Shown here piece by piece: positions 26,201 through 39,210 of a stretch of 60,908 bases of DNA; positions within the stretch are counted from its first letter, which is position 1; every line of letters starts with the position of its first letter. Source of the stretch: Nautiliaceae bacterium. Its GTDB lineage: Bacteria; Campylobacterota; Campylobacteria; Campylobacterales; Nautiliaceae. A program made the translations under genes and the position numbers. Location: the NCBI GenBank assembly GCA_027062285.1, contig JAMOTL010000007.1, forward strand, positions 1 through 60,908, read 5' to 3'. The notes below the pieces were generated by a model. The model ran no database searches and had not been told where the DNA came from. It worked only from the letters and a program-made list of their open reading frames with translations.

Positions 26201-26980
26201 TTAAAACTCTATTAATCCCTCAAGAGGAGAAGAAGCCGTAGCGTAAGGTTTTTTCGGAATTCTTCCCGCTTTATATGCCATTCTTCCGGCAATTACAGCA
26301 TGTTTCATAGCTTCAGCCATTCTTATTGGGTCTTTTGCCTGAGCAATTGCCGTATTAGTTAAAACTCCATCTGCTCCTAGTTCCATAGCTACACTCGCAT
26401 CACTTGCCGTACCTATTCCGGCATCAACAATTACCGGCACGTTTACAGCGTCTTTTACGAATACAACGTTATATCTGTTTTGAATACCAAGACCGCTTCC
26501 AATAGGAGCCGCAAGAGGCATTACAGCTGCAGCACCAGCATCTTCAAGTCTTTTTGCCATAATCGGGTCATCGTTTGTATATGCCATAACAGTGAAATCT
26601 TCTTTTGCCAAAACTTCACAAGCTTTTAAAGTTTCCATTACATCAGGATACAGAGTTTTTTTGGTATCACCGATTACTTCAAGCTTTATAATATCAATAC
26701 CTGTCGCTTCTCTTACTAATCTAAAAAGCGTAATAGCCTCTTCAGCCGTTGTACATCCTGCTGAATTCGGAAGAATCTGAACGTCCGTATCTTTAAAATA
26801 ATCCATAAGGTTTTCTTCATTCGGATCTAAAATATTCACTCTTCTAACAGCCACCGTAATCATTTCAGCACCACTCGCAAGGGTTGCGTCACGCGTAGTT
26901 TTAAAATCAGGATATTTCCCGCTTCCTACAATTAATCTACTTGTAAATTCATATTTACCTATTTTTAAAATATCAGCCAT
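26201..26980 (-). CDS. thiG: Thiazole synthase
   Basis: [57 protein letters not shown]. Confidence 0.96.
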
Positions 26981-28040
26981 TATTTCTCCTTATTTTTATA
27001 TAATCCCAAATTTCCTTATCTCCAAAAAGTCCGCGTCTAGCAAATAACATCAACAATAATAATAATAAACTAAATACTACCATTCTAAGTCCTGGAATAC
27101 CGTGAATAGGTCCTAAATGCCATGCCGTTTCATCTAGAGGTCTTAATACTTCCATACCTCCGATAAATAAAAATGTTCCTAAAATAGCACCGCTCATACT
27201 TCCAAGACCGCCCAATACTATAATAATTAAAAGCTGGAATGTCAACATAAATGTAAACTGATCAGGTGAAATAGATCCAATACTACTTGCCATAAGCCCT
27301 CCGCCAATTCCTTCAAAAAACGCACTGGTCATAAAAGCGGATGTTTTAGTCCAAAAAGTATTTACACCCATAGCAAGAGCGGCGTCTTCGTCGTCTCTTA
27401 CAGATTTCATCGCTCTTCCGAATTTTGAATATACGATATTATAAATAAGAATTACGGTAATTAAAGTCGCAACTCCAATCCAAAAATAACTTGCAAAAGG
27501 AGGAATGGAATCAAGTCCCATCGAACCGTTTGAAATTTGAGGATTGTTAATTAAAAAGATTCTAATAATAAACCCGAATCCAAGGGTTACGATAGCTAAA
27601 TAATCCCCTCTTACCCTAAACACAGGAAAAGCCAAAGTAAGAGCCACAAGAGCTGCAACTATGCCGCTTATTAAAAGCGCGAAAAACGGATTTGGCAAAA
27701 ATACGTCTCTAATGAGCGGAAGAGGCTCCGCTAACATATACATCTCTTCTTTAAGTTCGGGAGAAAGCATCAAAATAGCAGTAACATACGCACCGATTGC
27801 CACAAACCCGTTAGGCTCCAATGAAAACTGACCGGTTACACCGTTTATGAGGTTATAACTGACTGCCAAAATAATAAAAATATAAATATTCCCAAGTACC
27901 GTAATAGTATAATCGCTGAAAATTTTAGGAGATACGTATAAAAATGCTAAAAATACAGCGGTTACTATTCCAATCAGGGCAAAATACTGCCCAGGCGTCA
28001 TTGTCTTCACGTTCCACTTTTTCATTTTCGATTCTCCCAT
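26973..28040 (-). CDS. livM: Branched-chain amino acid-type ABC transporter permease (LivM family)
   Basis: LivM-like: [40 protein letters not shown]. Confidence 0.88.
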
Positions 28041-28043
28041 AGC

Positions 28044-28985
28044 TTAAAATCTTTGTCTTTCGAAATCTATACCCATTATTCCGGTAGGTTTAAATAAAAG
28101 AACGAAAATCAGCAAAATAAACGCAAACGCATCTTTCCAACCTCCAAGTTCCGGCAAAAATCCGGGAATAGCTACTTCTACGAATCCTAAAATAAATCCT
28201 CCTATAACAGCTCCCGTAACACTTCCGATACCACCGACAACAGCTGCGGCGAATGCTTTTAATCCTACAAGAACCCCCATATACGGGTCAATACTAGGAT
28301 ATGCCATAGCATAGGCCACACCACCTATCGCCGCCAACGCAGAACCCAAGGCAAAAACAAACGCGATAATTTTATTTGAATCCGCACCCATAAGTTTTAC
28401 CGTCTGAATATCAAAAGCCAAAGCCCTAATAGCAATTCCGACTTTTATTTTAAATAAAATAAACAGCACTAAACCTAATAAAAGCAAAGTGATAATAGGT
28501 ACTAAAATAGTGAGAATAGGCACAGTCACATCACCAAAGTGAAGTACTTGAGAAAACCATTTAGGAAAATAAAAAGACTGATAATTTCCTCCGAAATATT
28601 GATTAGCTATAACGTTAAATAAAGATTCCAAGAAAAACGAAATACCGATAGCGGTAATCAAAAGAGAAATTTTAGGAGCGTTTTTATCTAAAAGAGGCTT
28701 ATATGCCGTTACATAAGTCAAAACTCCTATAAATGCCGTTAGAATAATTGAAAATCCCACAGCAGTTAAAAAAACGGGCATTGTTACGTTTTCAAATTTC
28801 CAGCCCGTCAAAAGCCCGACAAAAATAAATGCCAAAAACGCTCCTACCATCATAATGTCACCGTGAGCGAAGTTAATAAGTCTAAGAACTCCATATACAA
28901 GCGTATATCCTATAGCAATCAGAGCATACATACTGCCAAGAGAAAATCCGTTTACCACCTGTTGGATTATAAAACTAAAATCCAT
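28044..28985 (-). CDS. livH: Branched-chain amino acid-type ABC transporter permease (LivH family)
   Basis: LivH-like: VNGFSLGSMYALIAIGYTLVYGVLRLINFAHGDIMM, VVGGIGSVTGAVIGG. Confidence 0.9.
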   Translation of the reverse strand: MDFSFIIQQVVNGFSLGSMYALIAIGYTLVYGVLRLINFAHGDIMMVGAFLAFIFVGLLTGWKFENVTMPVFLTAVGFSIILTAFIGVLTYVTAYKPLLDKNAPKISLLITAIGISFFLESLFNVIANQYFGGNYQSFYFPKWFSQVLHFGDVTVPILTILVPIITLLLLGLVLFILFKIKVGIAIRALAFDIQTVKLMGADSNKIIAFVFALGSALAAIGGVAYAMAYPSIDPYMGVLVGLKAFAAAVVGGIGSVTGAVIGGFILGFVEVAIPGFLPELGGWKDAFAFILLIFVLLFKPTGIMGIDFERQRF

Positions 28986-28987
28986 CG

Positions 28988-30493
28988 TTATACCTTTATA
29001 TCTTGCTTATCTAAAAAACTGAATTTCAAATTTTCTTCCGCATTTTGAGATTTGTCAAATTCCTTAACACCGTACCTCGCATCCGTTTTCATCTCTTTAC
29101 TTCCGCAATAAGGATGATTTTTGAGTTCATTGGTAACTTCAGAAAGTTTTTTCTGTGCGTTATCAGCTTCTGTGAACGGCATTACAATAAAAAATGTATT
29201 TTTATCTCTTATGATAATATCCGAACTTCTAAAACGGTTTTGTAAAAGTTTCGCAGCTTCTCTTAAAATACATTCCTGATAAAGCTTTCCTATCTTTTTA
29301 TCATCCAGCATAATTTCTATTTTTCCTATAGAAACAGGAAATTTATGTCTCATAGCCTGTTTAAAAATTTTAGACTCGAGTATAGGCAGATATTCTTTTG
29401 TAAATACCCCTGTGAGGGAATCTATAATTGGATTTTGAGAACCTATTTGAACGTTTCCTATCATTCCTCTTTCTATAGCGATTGAAAGAAGATTATAAAG
29501 CCTGTTTATCAATGAATTTAAAAATTCTTTTTCTTCTTCTTTAAGTTCCGAATTAGAACCTATAGAAATTACTATTTCGGCATTATTGTTTTTAAATCCT
29601 TTAAATACATATTTTTTTGCTTTTTTTTGTCCCATTTCATATTCAATATCATCATTTATCGATACTTTCAGACTAGCAATTGTCGGCATTACTCCTTTAA
29701 GACTCTCAAAAAGATTTTGTAAAGCCTCTTCAAGAGGTAAATAGATAAGATCCTTATAAAGGGTAGACATAACTTCTTCCATAGCTTCTTCGAAACTTTT
29801 TGATTTTTTAATAGAAAGAAGTTCATCTTTTGCTTTTTCTATAAATTCACCTTCAAGAACGCTTCCGTATTTAGGAACAACAAGCTCTAAATCTTCAGGA
29901 AGATTTTTTATGGCTCTTTTCATATATTCTACCGGCAAATAAAGCTGATGGAATGTTTTTAACGCATAAAGATAAAGAGGTTCTTTATCTACAAACAGTT
30001 GAAATTTATTTTTAACGGCACTGAAAAGTTCGCTACTAAAAAGCGTTTTGTTTTCTTTATCATATGTACAAAAACTTCCCGCAAAATAATTAAACGGCGT
30101 AAAAATAAACTCAAGTTCTCTGTTTTTAAGCTTCAATTTCCAATCATTTTCATCAATGATATAAACAGGCATATCCAAATCGAATTTATTTAAAAATACC
30201 GAAATCTTCCAATGCGTTACTAACGTAACATCAGGTATCAATTTTTTAATAGAGTCTAATATTTTAACCGTATCAGGCTCATAATTTTGCACTACAACGT
30301 ATTTAATATTCGATAAATCCATAATTTTAGACACTTTATCCACCAAACACTCGGCTTGAGTCCAGGCAGGGTCTATTAAAACTCCCACATCTTCGTCTCT
30401 ATACAAATAGACGTTTTGATTCAATAATTTTACGGAATCACACCCTACCCAATAAACATTTTCGTTTAATTTTACAGGTACTTCAAATCCCAT
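28988..30493 (-). CDS. FDP/ODP-like metallo-beta-lactamase-fold protein fused to a degenerate GGDEF domain
   Basis: N-terminal MBL-like fold (NVYWVGCDS..., NYEPDT, FAGSFCTYDKENKTLFSSELF); C-terminal DSLTGVFTKEYLPILE... with RDKNT where GGDEF is expected. Confidence 0.7.
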   Translation of the reverse strand: MGFEVPVKLNENVYWVGCDSVKLLNQNVYLYRDEDVGVLIDPAWTQAECLVDKVSKIMDLSNIKYVVVQNYEPDTVKILDSIKKLIPDVTLVTHWKISVFLNKFDLDMPVYIIDENDWKLKLKNRELEFIFTPFNYFAGSFCTYDKENKTLFSSELFSAVKNKFQLFVDKEPLYLYALKTFHQLYLPVEYMKRAIKNLPEDLELVVPKYGSVLEGEFIEKAKDELLSIKKSKSFEEAMEEVMSTLYKDLIYLPLEEALQNLFESLKGVMPTIASLKVSINDDIEYEMGQKKAKKYVFKGFKNNNAEIVISIGSNSELKEEEKEFLNSLINRLYNLLSIAIERGMIGNVQIGSQNPIIDSLTGVFTKEYLPILESKIFKQAMRHKFPVSIGKIEIMLDDKKIGKLYQECILREAAKLLQNRFRSSDIIIRDKNTFFIVMPFTEADNAQKKLSEVTNELKNHPYCGSKEMKTDARYGVKEFDKSQNAEENLKFSFLDKQDIKV

Positions 30494-30535
30494 GACTTCC
30501 TCTTTTTAATTTTTTTTTATACTACCATAAATTAC

Positions 30536-30567
30536 TTATGAATACAAACGATAATTTGTATTCATAA
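30536..30567. repeat. Perfect 13-bp inverted repeat (hairpin) downstream of livK-like gene
   Basis: TTATGAATACAAA-CGATAA-TTTGTATTCATAA. Confidence 0.95.
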
Positions 30568-30591
30568 ATACCCCGGAAAAAGGGGTGAAGA

Positions 30592-31734
30592 TTAAGGCTT
30601 AACCAATTCTACGAATTCTGTTCTTCCGTCTACGATTTTTTCGATAACCGCAGGTTTATTTACAGGGTTACCGGTTTTAGGATCGATTGTTAGATATCCA
30701 GTAACAGCTTCAAGGTTTTTAGTATGTCTGATTGCGTTGTTTACGCATTTTTTGAATTGAGCAGTATTTTCAGAGTTAGCTTTTGTGTTACATTGTTTTA
30801 CAGCGTTATAGATCAGTAAGTATCCATCAGCACCAGTTGCCGCGAAAGCACTTGGAAGTCTTCCATATTTAGCTTTGAAATCTTTAATAAACTGAGCTGA
30901 TAATGGGGTTGGAGCTTTTGCCGCGTCAAAATGGTCGGTATACATAACTCCGTTTGCCGCTTTTCCAGCTAGTTTTTTAAGCAGTCCCGGGTCTGCGATA
31001 CCGTCACCACCCATTACAGGAGCTTTCACTCCGGCAGCTCTAAGTTGTCTTAAGAACAAACCTTCTTCTGGTGCGTAAATAGGCGTATAGATGAATTTAG
31101 GGTTAAGTTTTTTAATTTGCGCCACTTGCGCGTTAAAATCTTTGTCACCTGTGTTGATGTAAAGAGTTTTAAGGATTTTTCCTCCGCCTTTTCTATATGA
31201 ATTCATAAACGCTTTAGCAAGTCCTACAGAGTAATCCTGTTTCATATCAAATACCACTACAGCATTGTCAAGTCCGTGTTTTAAAGCGTATTTAGCCGCT
31301 ACAGTTCCTTGGAAATCATCGGTAAAACATGCTCTTGTGATGTATTTTGAGTTTTTAGTAACTCTTGGGTTTGTCGCGATTTGAGTTACTGTTGGAGTTT
31401 GAGTTTGATCAGCAAATCTTTTTACGGCAAGTGCCATAGAAGATGCCAACGGTCCCTCAACCGCTACAACGTTTTCACCGCTTACAAGTCTTTTATATCC
31501 GTTAACAGTTTGAATTTTGTCAAATTGATTATCTACGATTACAAGTTTGATAGTATCACCATTTGGAAGTTTATTGTATTTTTCGTGAGCCAGTTTAATA
31601 CCGTCAAGTGTTTTTTGTCCGAATGCCGCAATCGGACCTGTTAGAGGTTGTAAAATACCTACTTTAATCTCTTTTGCCATAAGTGTCGAAGCAACTAATG
31701 CGCTTAAGCCTAATGCTAAAAGTTTCTTTTTCAT
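30592..31734 (-). CDS. livK: Branched-chain amino acid-type ABC transporter substrate-binding protein
   Basis: Signal peptide, IKVGILQPLTGPIAAFGQKTLDGIKLA, type I periplasmic-binding fold. Confidence 0.88.
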   Translation of the reverse strand: MKKKLLALGLSALVASTLMAKEIKVGILQPLTGPIAAFGQKTLDGIKLAHEKYNKLPNGDTIKLVIVDNQFDKIQTVNGYKRLVSGENVVAVEGPLASSMALAVKRFADQTQTPTVTQIATNPRVTKNSKYITRACFTDDFQGTVAAKYALKHGLDNAVVVFDMKQDYSVGLAKAFMNSYRKGGGKILKTLYINTGDKDFNAQVAQIKKLNPKFIYTPIYAPEEGLFLRQLRAAGVKAPVMGGDGIADPGLLKKLAGKAANGVMYTDHFDAAKAPTPLSAQFIKDFKAKYGRLPSAFAATGADGYLLIYNAVKQCNTKANSENTAQFKKCVNNAIRHTKNLEAVTGYLTIDPKTGNPVNKPAVIEKIVDGRTEFVELVKP

Positions 31735-36015: not shown

Positions 36016-36400
36016 TCTTTTTCGCACCTGCGATGCTAATTTAAATAGATTTAAAGAAGGTATTCGTGTCGTAGAAGATATCCTGCGATACGAATTCAAT
36101 TCCCCACTTGCTAAAGAATTAAAAGAACTTCGTCATATTAAAGTTCCGAATTACGAAGAAATAATAAAATACAGAGACTCTCTAAATGATATACTAAAAT
36201 CTTCTACAAAATCGGAGCTTAAAAGAAACTCCTTGAAAGATATAATTATTTCAAATTTAAAAAGAGCACAAGAAAGCTCCAGAGTATTGGAAGAGATTTA
36301 TAAATTAATAGATATAAATACATCAGAAGAATTTAAAACGGCAAGATATAAACTCTATAACCTCGAAAAAGAGATTTTGGAATTAATACAAGACATATAA
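36005..36400 (+). CDS. ThiD2-like protein (thiamine biosynthesis-associated)
   Basis: FRTCDANLNRFKEGIRVVEDILRYE resembles the N-terminal ThiD2 domain found fused to some ThiE proteins. Confidence 0.65.
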   Translation: MKSNLFRTCDANLNRFKEGIRVVEDILRYEFNSPLAKELKELRHIKVPNYEEIIKYRDSLNDILKSSTKSELKRNSLKDIIISNLKRAQESSRVLEEIYKLIDINTSEEFKTARYKLYNLEKEILELIQDI

Positions 36401-36838
36401 TTTCGTTTCTTCGAACTCTATCCTCTCTTTCAAAGCCTTACCTAATTTTTTATAATCATGAAAAAACTCGTTTTTTTTATTTTTTATTGTCTCTTTTGTT
36501 GAATAAATTAATAAAAATTTTTCAAGCATTTTAGTTATTTTATTCATTTTTTCTTTTGTTTCATTTATAAAATTCAATATACTTTCGTATCCGTCATATT
36601 TTTTAATTAACTTGTCATAAAGATAATTGTCCTCAAATAATACATGTTTTTTATATTTATAAAAAAATTTATTTAAAAGCTTTATTACATCTTCAATATT
36701 TCTTTTATTAAATTTTGTTTCGATTTGTTGATATAGTTTTACTAATTCTTTATGTTCTTTTTCCAGATCTTTAATAAGACTCACTTGTGAGTTTTTTCTA
36801 AAAAACAATATAATTTTCCTAAAAAGATAAAAATTCAT
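36383..36838 (-). CDS. Hemerythrin-like (HHE) protein
   Basis: LEKEHKELVKLYQQIE, KKHVLFEDNYLYDKL, RIEFEETKLYVLY pattern. Confidence 0.55.
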   Translation of the reverse strand: MNFYLFRKIILFFRKNSQVSLIKDLEKEHKELVKLYQQIETKFNKRNIEDVIKLLNKFFYKYKKHVLFEDNYLYDKLIKKYDGYESILNFINETKEKMNKITKMLEKFLLIYSTKETIKNKKNEFFHDYKKLGKALKERIEFEETKLYVLY

Positions 36839-36987: not shown

Positions 36988-38004
36988 TTAAATTACCTCA
37001 TAAATATAACTATTTTTACCCTCATCAAAAACCATTAAATAATTATTTATTTTGTCAGTTACTTCAATATCAGCGTTTTTACCCAAAACAAGCAAATAAA
37101 ACTTGTCATTTTCAATTTTTTTATTTTCAAGTAATGTTTTATTAGTAATCATTTTATTATTTAATTTTAAATAAAAACTAAATCCAAAAGGGTCGGTTTT
37201 ACTCAACTCTTCCATATATTCAAAAGCTTTTTTTATAACCTCATCATCCTTGGCATAAAAACATAAGTTTTGAATTTTATACTCTTTAAATATTTCGTAA
37301 CCTTTCGAATAAGGACTATTCATAAAATTTTTAAGCCCTTTTTCGAATTCATCCTTTTTATTACTTTTAACAAAAACAAAATAGACCCTTGGAGAAATCG
37401 GCTTAAATTTTATTGCGTACAGATAATAATCCCCTTTGATTTTTTCTCTTATCTCATTCAATCTGTTTTTTATAAACAGGTCCTGTTTTATCCTTGGAAA
37501 GTGCTGATAAACAACCAAAATTTCACTATTTTCAAAAAATTTTTCTATTTCATCAAAAAATATGTATTTACCTCCCTTTTTATTACTTTTTTTAACGCTT
37601 TTAACTTCTATTCCGTTATCCGGGTCAACAAAAACCACACTACAGTTTTTTATACTATCAACGGCTCTTTTTATCCATTTTTCTCTTTTTTCAGTTTTTT
37701 TTTTAAAGCCATCTTCAATAAAATCACCAAAATACTTTATCTTCTGATTTTCAAAATATTCTTTTAATTTAGTTTCTAAATTTTTAATATCTCTTTTGGT
37801 ATTTGCTACATTTTCAAGCACACTTATAAGCTCTAAATCATTAAGTTTGGAATATTTATGATAGTCTTTATGTTTGCCGTCATTATTGTGTGTTTCATCG
37901 GGATAGAGATACCATACAACTCCTACACTCTTATTACCGAATAATCTTTTAATTAAAATAAATTTACTATAATCCTCAATATCCCCCGAATACCTGTTTT
38001 GCAT
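36988..38004 (-). CDS. Uncharacterised protein with N-terminal MQNRYxGDIxDY motif
   Basis: Start at internal ATG 38004 (MQNRYSGDIEDYSKF) preferred over ORF start 38028; GVVWYLYPDE, VVFVDPDNGIE, LVVYQHFPR motifs. Confidence 0.65.
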   Translation of the reverse strand: MQNRYSGDIEDYSKFILIKRLFGNKSVGVVWYLYPDETHNNDGKHKDYHKYSKLNDLELISVLENVANTKRDIKNLETKLKEYFENQKIKYFGDFIEDGFKKKTEKREKWIKRAVDSIKNCSVVFVDPDNGIEVKSVKKSNKKGGKYIFFDEIEKFFENSEILVVYQHFPRIKQDLFIKNRLNEIREKIKGDYYLYAIKFKPISPRVYFVFVKSNKKDEFEKGLKNFMNSPYSKGYEIFKEYKIQNLCFYAKDDEVIKKAFEYMEELSKTDPFGFSFYLKLNNKMITNKTLLENKKIENDKFYLLVLGKNADIEVTDKINNYLMVFDEGKNSYIYEVI

Positions 38005-38686
38005 TTTTTTCTCCTTTAAAAGTTTCAAAATCTTTTTTTATTTTTTCATCAAAAGGTAATAAAAAATATCCGCTTTCATCTCCTAAAATCATAGTTTTAT
38101 AGGGCGTATTTAAAAACATCTCCCCAAGCTTCCATGAAATATATGCATCAAGTTCATCATCAATATTTATTTTCATATCTTTAATTATTTTAAGCTCTTT
38201 TAATTCATCTACTATTTCTTTTAAAATTTCCTTTTTATTTTCCCCTTTTTTATATTGAAAGTTTTCTCTTTTACCTTTTAACCATATCCATATTGCTAAA
38301 GCAGGATGAACTTCTATTAGTTTTATTTTTTGGATATTTAAATCTTCTCTTTTTAATACAAGAGAGATATCTTCTCTTTTACAATATAATGAAGGATAAC
38401 CTATCACATACTCGGACATCAGCCAATGAGAACATCCGGCTATCGGCAATACAGAAACACCTGGTGGTAACTTTTTTTTATATCTAAAAAAATATTCAAC
38501 CGGCCTATAATAAAAATTAAAAGTTTTCATATCAAAACTTAAAGGCGCATCCCAGCAAATTAACGTATCTTTATCTAAAGACTCAATAAAACTTTTTAAT
38601 CTCTCCACATTGTATTTTTGGAAACTTTTCCCATCAAATACGACATTATCTTTTCTTGGTGCAGGGTCTATTCCATATATTTTCAT
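37976..38686 (-). CDS. DUF429-like predicted RNase H-fold protein
   Basis: KIYGIDPAP...KDTLICWDAPLSF...IEVHPALAIW...DDELDAYISWKLG acidic-residue pattern. Confidence 0.6.
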   Translation of the reverse strand: MKIYGIDPAPRKDNVVFDGKSFQKYNVERLKSFIESLDKDTLICWDAPLSFDMKTFNFYYRPVEYFFRYKKKLPPGVSVLPIAGCSHWLMSEYVIGYPSLYCKREDISLVLKREDLNIQKIKLIEVHPALAIWIWLKGKRENFQYKKGENKKEILKEIVDELKELKIIKDMKINIDDELDAYISWKLGEMFLNTPYKTMILGDESGYFLLPFDEKIKKDFETFKGEKNAKQVFGGY

Positions 38687-39210
38687 ATGTCTCCTTTTTT
38701 TAAAATATTACCATCCTTATCTAGCACAATATAATTATCAAACCAGTCACTTTTATAAATATAATTTTCTATTTTGCCCCACAGTTTTAATTTTCCTTTA
38801 TTTTCTAAATAGTGCCTTTTTACATAAAATTTTATATATTCAAGCTCTTGGTCTTTATTTTCAAAACTTCTTCTATCAATCAAAATATTTCTAACTCCTT
38901 CCATTGCGACTAGTGAAAATATCGGCTGAGACTTTTTTTGAAAATTAGTATTAACAAATAAACGTCCAGGTTTTTTACTTAGTTTTTCTCTAATCTTTTC
39001 AAAAAGCTTTAAATTTTTTTCATCCCCGCATAACTCTAATACTTTTTTTAAAAAGACTTCACTTCCTAAATGAAAATCGTATGAAAATTGATATCTTAAA
39101 AACTCCTCAATACCGTTTTGTTCTAGATATTCTATCTTTTTTAAACAAGGTCTTACATCAATATATCCAAGCTTTTTACATAAGCTGATTCTATCTTTTA
39201 TCTTTATCAC
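38683..39210 (-). CDS. Uncharacterised protein, first gene of three-gene cassette
   Basis: 175-aa ORF, 4-bp overlap with the next gene; no family recognised. Confidence 0.55.
   Translation of the reverse strand: MIKIKDRISLCKKLGYIDVRPCLKKIEYLEQNGIEEFLRYQFSYDFHLGSEVFLKKVLELCGDEKNLKLFEKIREKLSKKPGRLFVNTNFQKKSQPIFSLVAMEGVRNILIDRRSFENKDQELEYIKFYVKRHYLENKGKLKLWGKIENYIYKSDWFDNYIVLDKDGNILKKGDI

Follow-up and report, generated by a model that had tools for sequence, protein, structure and literature searches.

Gene organization at the livK–livH locus

The window, by which we mean the whole 60,908-nucleotide stretch of DNA from a Nautiliaceae bacterium (genome G000 below), carries a liv operon in which a gene for a 501-residue protein lies between a livK-like gene and livH; gene neighbourhood confirms this placement, which had been proposed in the initial annotation. 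An open reading frame check shows that the gene reads from 30493 to 28988 on the minus strand. The features of the locus are as follows.

30592..31734, minus strand: livK-like binding protein (PF13458), first gene of the operon
30494..30591, minus strand: tandem RNA hairpin between livK and the degenerate gene (z -5.2)
28988..30493, minus strand: degenerate ODP / GAF-like / degenerate GGDEF gene, whole (501 aa), with orthologues in G001, G005 and G002
29834..30493, minus strand: ODP-family metallo-beta-lactamase (MBL) domain, residues 1-220 (PF19583, 117.5 bits; fold match 6qrq)
29444..29833, minus strand: middle domain, residues 221-350, GAF-like by predicted topology only and the least conserved part
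28991..29443, minus strand: degenerate GGDEF domain, residues 351-501 (profile and alignment)
28044..28985, minus strand: livH permease (PF02653), beginning 2 nt after the degenerate gene
26973..28040, minus strand: livM permease (PF02653)

The Pfam ODP family PF19583 covers residues 25-209 (E 9e-34, 117.5 bits against a cut-off of 27.2). The GGDEF family PF00990 covers residues 358-487 as a marginal match, with 21.8 and 23.9 bits in two scans against a cut-off of 23.8, and TIGR00254 scores 28.6 bits against a cut-off of 37.4. The middle domain (221-350) has no Pfam match. Neither Pfam nor the structural model gave a match for the flavodoxin (FMN) domain of flavodiiron proteins, in whose place GAF-like and GGDEF-like regions are found. 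In the AlphaFold2 model (mean pLDDT 81.5, pTM 0.50), the MBL fold is followed by a middle unit of helices, four strands and a further helix, and then by a GGDEF-like domain. This middle unit, at about residues 230-341, separates the ODP and GGDEF halves and is GAF-like by predicted topology only. Relative to the intact paralogue, for which a stalk helix is predicted at residues 342-384, the stalk of the degenerate protein is predicted to be broken near residues 346-355, with a helix at 319-341 and then disorder. The best fold match in the PDB is the apo ODP 6qrq (6qrq_C, TM 0.79 by target length) and the second is a cyanobacterial Flv1 core. Profile, alignment and fold comparison together support the initial reading of an ODP-like protein joined to a GGDEF remnant and degenerate at both active sites; the minus-strand orientation, the GAF-like middle domain, the broken stalk helix and a kept RxxD motif (422-425) are features beyond it.

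The gene is closely packed against livH. The gap between the two is 1-2 nt in G000, G001 and G005, and the junction sequence places the likely livH ribosome site, AAAGG, inside the last codons of the degenerate gene. The livG and livF genes are paired on another contig, apart from livK-livH-livM (G000:C107:62116-63568, equivalent to L106:4117-5569).

Loss of the di-iron ligands in the ODP half

The window protein and its three orthologues were aligned with 14 intact ODP-GGDEF proteins of the phylum, and the roles of the ligands follow from a comparison with ODPs and flavodiiron proteins of solved structure and from the general background on the two families. All three ligand histidines, invariant in the 14 intact homologues, are replaced identically in the four degenerate orthologues (H70N, H136Y and H209Y), at the following positions.

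30272..30289, minus strand: QNYEPD (69-74) for the first ligand motif HHQDPD, with H70N, D72E and D74 kept (alignment)
30086..30088, minus strand: Y136 for a ligand His (AHF to NYF), Tyr in the four orthologues and His in the 14 intact homologues
30029..30031, minus strand: E155 for the bridging Asp (SSD to SSE), with Asp retained in the G001 orthologue
29867..29869, minus strand: Y209 for a ligand His (PQHG to PKYG; alignment)

The substitutions listed in the initial annotation (in the first motif, at the lost His, in SSE and in PKYG) are thus real when read against the intact homologues. Chance match, frame artefact and sequencing error are excluded as sources of these changes, as the same His replacements occur in three orthologues of other assemblies, one of them a single contig. 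The di-iron set of three histidines and three carboxylates is incomplete, with every His gone and the carboxylates present as Glu or Asp: E72, where the substitution gives the Glu found in flavodiiron proteins, D74, and Glu or Asp at 155. Among eight histidines invariant in intact ODP domains only H94 and H182 remain, and residues of the second shell have changed too (H27N, H103K, W106L, H184L). Judged by its sequence, the protein is a homologue of ODPs and not a functional di-iron ODP.

One possible reading of this pattern is that the pocket has been re-made, with N70, E72, D74, Y136, E155 and Y209 holding another metal or a small molecule. In its favour, particular residues have become fixed (Asn, Tyr and Tyr in four of four orthologues) and every carboxylate is still acidic, where a drifting pocket would be expected to vary. 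However, the second-shell changes speak against it, as does the similarly stripped Flv1 core, which binds no metal (PMC7785958), and we consider a re-made sensor rather improbable. A fuller version, in which the rebuilt Asn/Glu/Asp/Tyr/Glu/Tyr pocket would sense its new ligand and signal to the co-expressed amino-acid transporter without a second messenger, is less probable again; if true, an ODP-cyclase would have given rise to a new class of sensor.

The GGDEF half has lost catalytic residues and kept RxxD

Across the four orthologues, the alignment shows loss of the metal-binding Asp of the GGDEF domain, of the NDTYGH segment and of the GGEEF loop. The Asp position of DID is occupied by E, E, L and N, and the loop at the GGDEF position varies between orthologues. 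The C-terminus is shortened; the C-terminal helix of the GGDEF domain is missing, as is the coiled-coil stalk. The aligned loop and the I-site motif lie as follows.

29192..29206, minus strand: DKNTF (430-434), aligned with GG[DE]EF (alignment)
29219..29230, minus strand: RSSD (422-425), the RxxD I-site motif, kept as R[SG]SD in four of four orthologues

The initial annotation had read RDKNT in place of GGDEF; the loss of the motif stands, but the aligned stretch is DKNTF and its R is the conserved Arg that precedes it. Of 41 conserved GGDEF columns, 10 are retained in all four orthologues, both I-site residues included; the chance of both surviving is (10/41)x(9/40), or about 5%, and the retention of RxxD is only suggestive as a sign of c-di-GMP binding. 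The I-site may be incomplete, since the degenerate protein lacks another Arg, at position 454, that the intact enzymes conserve. The window genome has about thirty other GGDEF matches, so c-di-GMP is probably made there.

The livK–livH slot across Nautiliaceae

Gene order at this locus across the family is livK-[X]-livH-livM-thiG, and the occupant of the slot X differs between genomes. The degenerate gene fills it in G000, G001, G005 and G002, four species of one genus, with two small PAS genes added in G002. An intact ODP-GGDEF gene is found there in G012, G014, G017, G018 and G019 (two genera), accompanied by a PAS gene in G017 and G018. The slot of G003 holds a PAS gene only, that of G016 an internally deleted remnant, and the family-wide slot comparison found it empty in G006-G011, G013 and G015. 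The liv link therefore predates the loss of activity, as intact ODP-GGDEF genes share the slot in relatives, and neither the liv location nor the fusion is the oddity it had seemed. Conservation of the gene in the liv operon of relatives, raised in the initial annotation, holds for the four species with a degenerate copy and the five with an intact one, but not for G003 and G006 of the same genus, which carry liv genes without the degenerate gene in the slot; the gene is therefore not needed for the transporter. As for the suggested role of sensor or scaffold, its link to transport is plausible, given the conserved liv place and the 2 nt to livH, whereas a link to redox state is weakened because the iron ligands are lost.

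Small single-PAS proteins of 143-155 aa are encoded in the slot of several relatives (L043:9569-10462, L045:8636-9103, L046:8812-9243 and L091:4173-4622), in one case with no ODP gene beside them; genes for cytosolic sensors thus seem to have settled at this site repeatedly. The G016 remnant (L102:5354-5980, minus strand) has lost the ODP core and keeps a partial GGDEF half, still with GGEEF.

The window genome has a second, intact ODP-GGDEF gene at C31:38206-39831 (L044:8207-9832), beside a queA-like gene. Intact ODP copies away from the liv genes are also present in G003, G005 and G006, that of G006 running off the contig end; no other ODP protein was found in G001 (single contig) or G002 (99% complete). 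The intact paralogue in the window genome and G005 would permit the degenerate protein to serve as a regulatory subunit that dimerises with the ODP-GGDEF protein encoded elsewhere, and such pairing has been proposed for paired cyanobacterial flavodiiron proteins. Yet in G001 and G002 the only ODP protein is that of the degenerate gene, which disfavours this as a general role and excludes an obligatory pairing, and the stalk expected to mediate dimerisation is predicted to be broken; we regard a regulatory subunit as very unlikely. Elsewhere in the phylum (L054-L069), many ODP domains are fused to apparent histidine-kinase ATPase domains (C-terminal GTGLGL) and not to GGDEF.

Selection and descent

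Pairwise counts between the degenerate orthologues gave pN 0.14-0.25 against pS 0.67-0.73 in the ODP domain and pN 0.26-0.38 against pS 0.54-0.69 in the GGDEF domain, with ratios that are rough because pS is near saturation. Identity between orthologues is 65-82% in the ODP domain, 43-61% in the GGDEF half and 22-46% in the middle, and the ODP domain, though the most constrained of the three, is less so than in intact copies. With pN well below pS, the reading as a pseudogene was rejected. The repeated loss of the slot gene in the family and the internally deleted remnant in G016 would suit a functionless gene in decay, its frame kept open only through coupling to livH. However, four species whose synonymous divergence is near saturation all retain an open frame, pN is far lower than pS in the ODP domain and in the GGDEF domain, and the new residues are conserved after a fast stem; coupling would keep a frame, not particular residues. 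Decay of this kind is accordingly highly improbable.

The stem of the four-species clade in the ODP tree is about 3 changes per site, with tips of 0.03-0.32 and support of 100/100. So long a stem means that the tree cannot place the degenerate clade, and descent from the slot gene, as the likeliest history, would rest on synteny, with gene replacement in the slot as the alternative. Likeliest of all is an ancestral ODP-cyclase in the slot that was lost several times and converted once. Rapid change along the stem, with the new residues conserved afterwards, is more readily explained by a change of function than by decay.

Well supported from sequence, then, are two sites that lack ligand or catalytic residues, the same replacements in four species, the same slot, and purifying selection, and we are highly confident that the gene encodes a selected pseudoenzyme derived from an ODP-cyclase. 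Selection in these vent-type bacteria still preserves a slot gene that has lost both active sites, and it therefore probably has a new, non-enzymatic job.

Possible roles of the pseudoenzyme

We propose that the ancestor was an O2-sensing diguanylate cyclase encoded between livK and livH, with an ODP sensor, a GAF-like relay, a coiled-coil stalk and a GGDEF output. In one clade of the genus the di-iron ligands and the cyclase active site would have been lost, and the gene then kept as a conserved pseudoenzyme that no longer reports O2. Through its kept RxxD I-site this protein would bind c-di-GMP produced by other cyclases and, as it is co-expressed with LivH and LivM, would act as a c-di-GMP-responsive adaptor on the transporter or on a neighbouring signalling partner. 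We hold this account, in-place conversion with c-di-GMP binding as the working step, tentatively, at somewhat under an even chance. For its parts, binding of c-di-GMP, suggested by the kept RxxD, is possible but open to real doubt, and LivHM as the target is on the unlikely side.

The degenerate protein might instead bind no metal and no nucleotide and serve as a structural adaptor, its ODP and GAF-like domains contacting LivHM, LivGF (encoded elsewhere) or another sensor as partner and its GGDEF half left over as an interface. That constraint is strongest in the ODP domain, where the metal site has been lost, suggests a conserved surface, and the loss of the stalk and C-terminal helices also agrees with such a role; against it, RxxD is kept in four of four orthologues. 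We take a structural adaptor to be a serious contender that nevertheless falls well short of probable.

Relation to known systems

Fusions of ODPs to signalling domains form a group already on record (Muok et al. 2019, summarised in PMC7319448). The degenerate protein shares Pfam family, fold and fusion to a signalling output with the ODPs of T. maritima (6qrq/6qwo) and T. denticola (6qnm/6r9n); unlike them it has all three ligand His replaced and an output domain that is inactive by sequence. Intact Campylobacterota ODP-GGDEF proteins (L044:8207-9832, and the slot gene L045:7021-8697) have the same domain order at about 30% identity, and intact copies occupy the same slot in five relatives. 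They keep HHQDPD, AHF, SSD, PQHG, the stalk helix and GGEE[FI], none of which is intact in the degenerate protein. Metal-free flavodiiron cores are known, as the MBL domain of Flv1 is without metal ligands (PMC7785958), and the cyanobacterial Flv1 cores (6h0c/6h0d) resemble the degenerate protein in having such a domain of the flavodiiron group. Flv1, however, works as part of an enzyme and includes flavodoxin and flavin-reductase domains, neither of which the degenerate protein has. A precedent for an RxxD receptor without catalysis is PelD, a non-catalytic GGDEF-like domain protein for which c-di-GMP binding has been shown (PMC2170427). In both proteins the GG[DE]EF motif is absent and RxxD kept, but binding by the degenerate protein is putative, PelD is without an ODP domain, and the degenerate protein has lost a further Arg conserved in intact relatives.

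Among open-access papers, we found none describing a conserved ODP-cyclase in which both halves are degenerate. What makes the case useful is that an O2-sensing cyclase has apparently become a pseudoenzyme while relatives keep the intact gene in the same slot, a series of losses surrounds it, and there are species with and without the intact paralogue. Together these offer a natural comparison of what a signalling enzyme is kept for after sensing and catalysis are gone, and of whether RxxD is by itself enough for a c-di-GMP receptor.

RNA hairpin after livK and neighbouring genes

The tandem hairpin is conserved in structure, with different arm sequence, in eight relatives. It occurs in nine of nine slots with a full-length gene, intact or degenerate (z -5.0 to -6.6); among nine slots without one, a strong fold is found in G015 only (Fisher p 4e-4 for hairpin against full-length slot gene, with kinship ignored). 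No Rfam family covers the hairpins. The element may serve as a partial terminator or 3'-end stabiliser and thereby allow livK to be expressed above the level of the sensor gene.

Further along the window on the minus strand, 36383-36838 encodes a stand-alone hemerythrin-domain protein, another possible O2 or iron protein. Near the same locus, three adjacent open reading frames on the minus strand (36988-39210), two without a Pfam match and one a borderline DUF429, adjoin a WYL-domain regulator (39293), and parts of the set recur near the same locus in G002 (L043:14444-16757).
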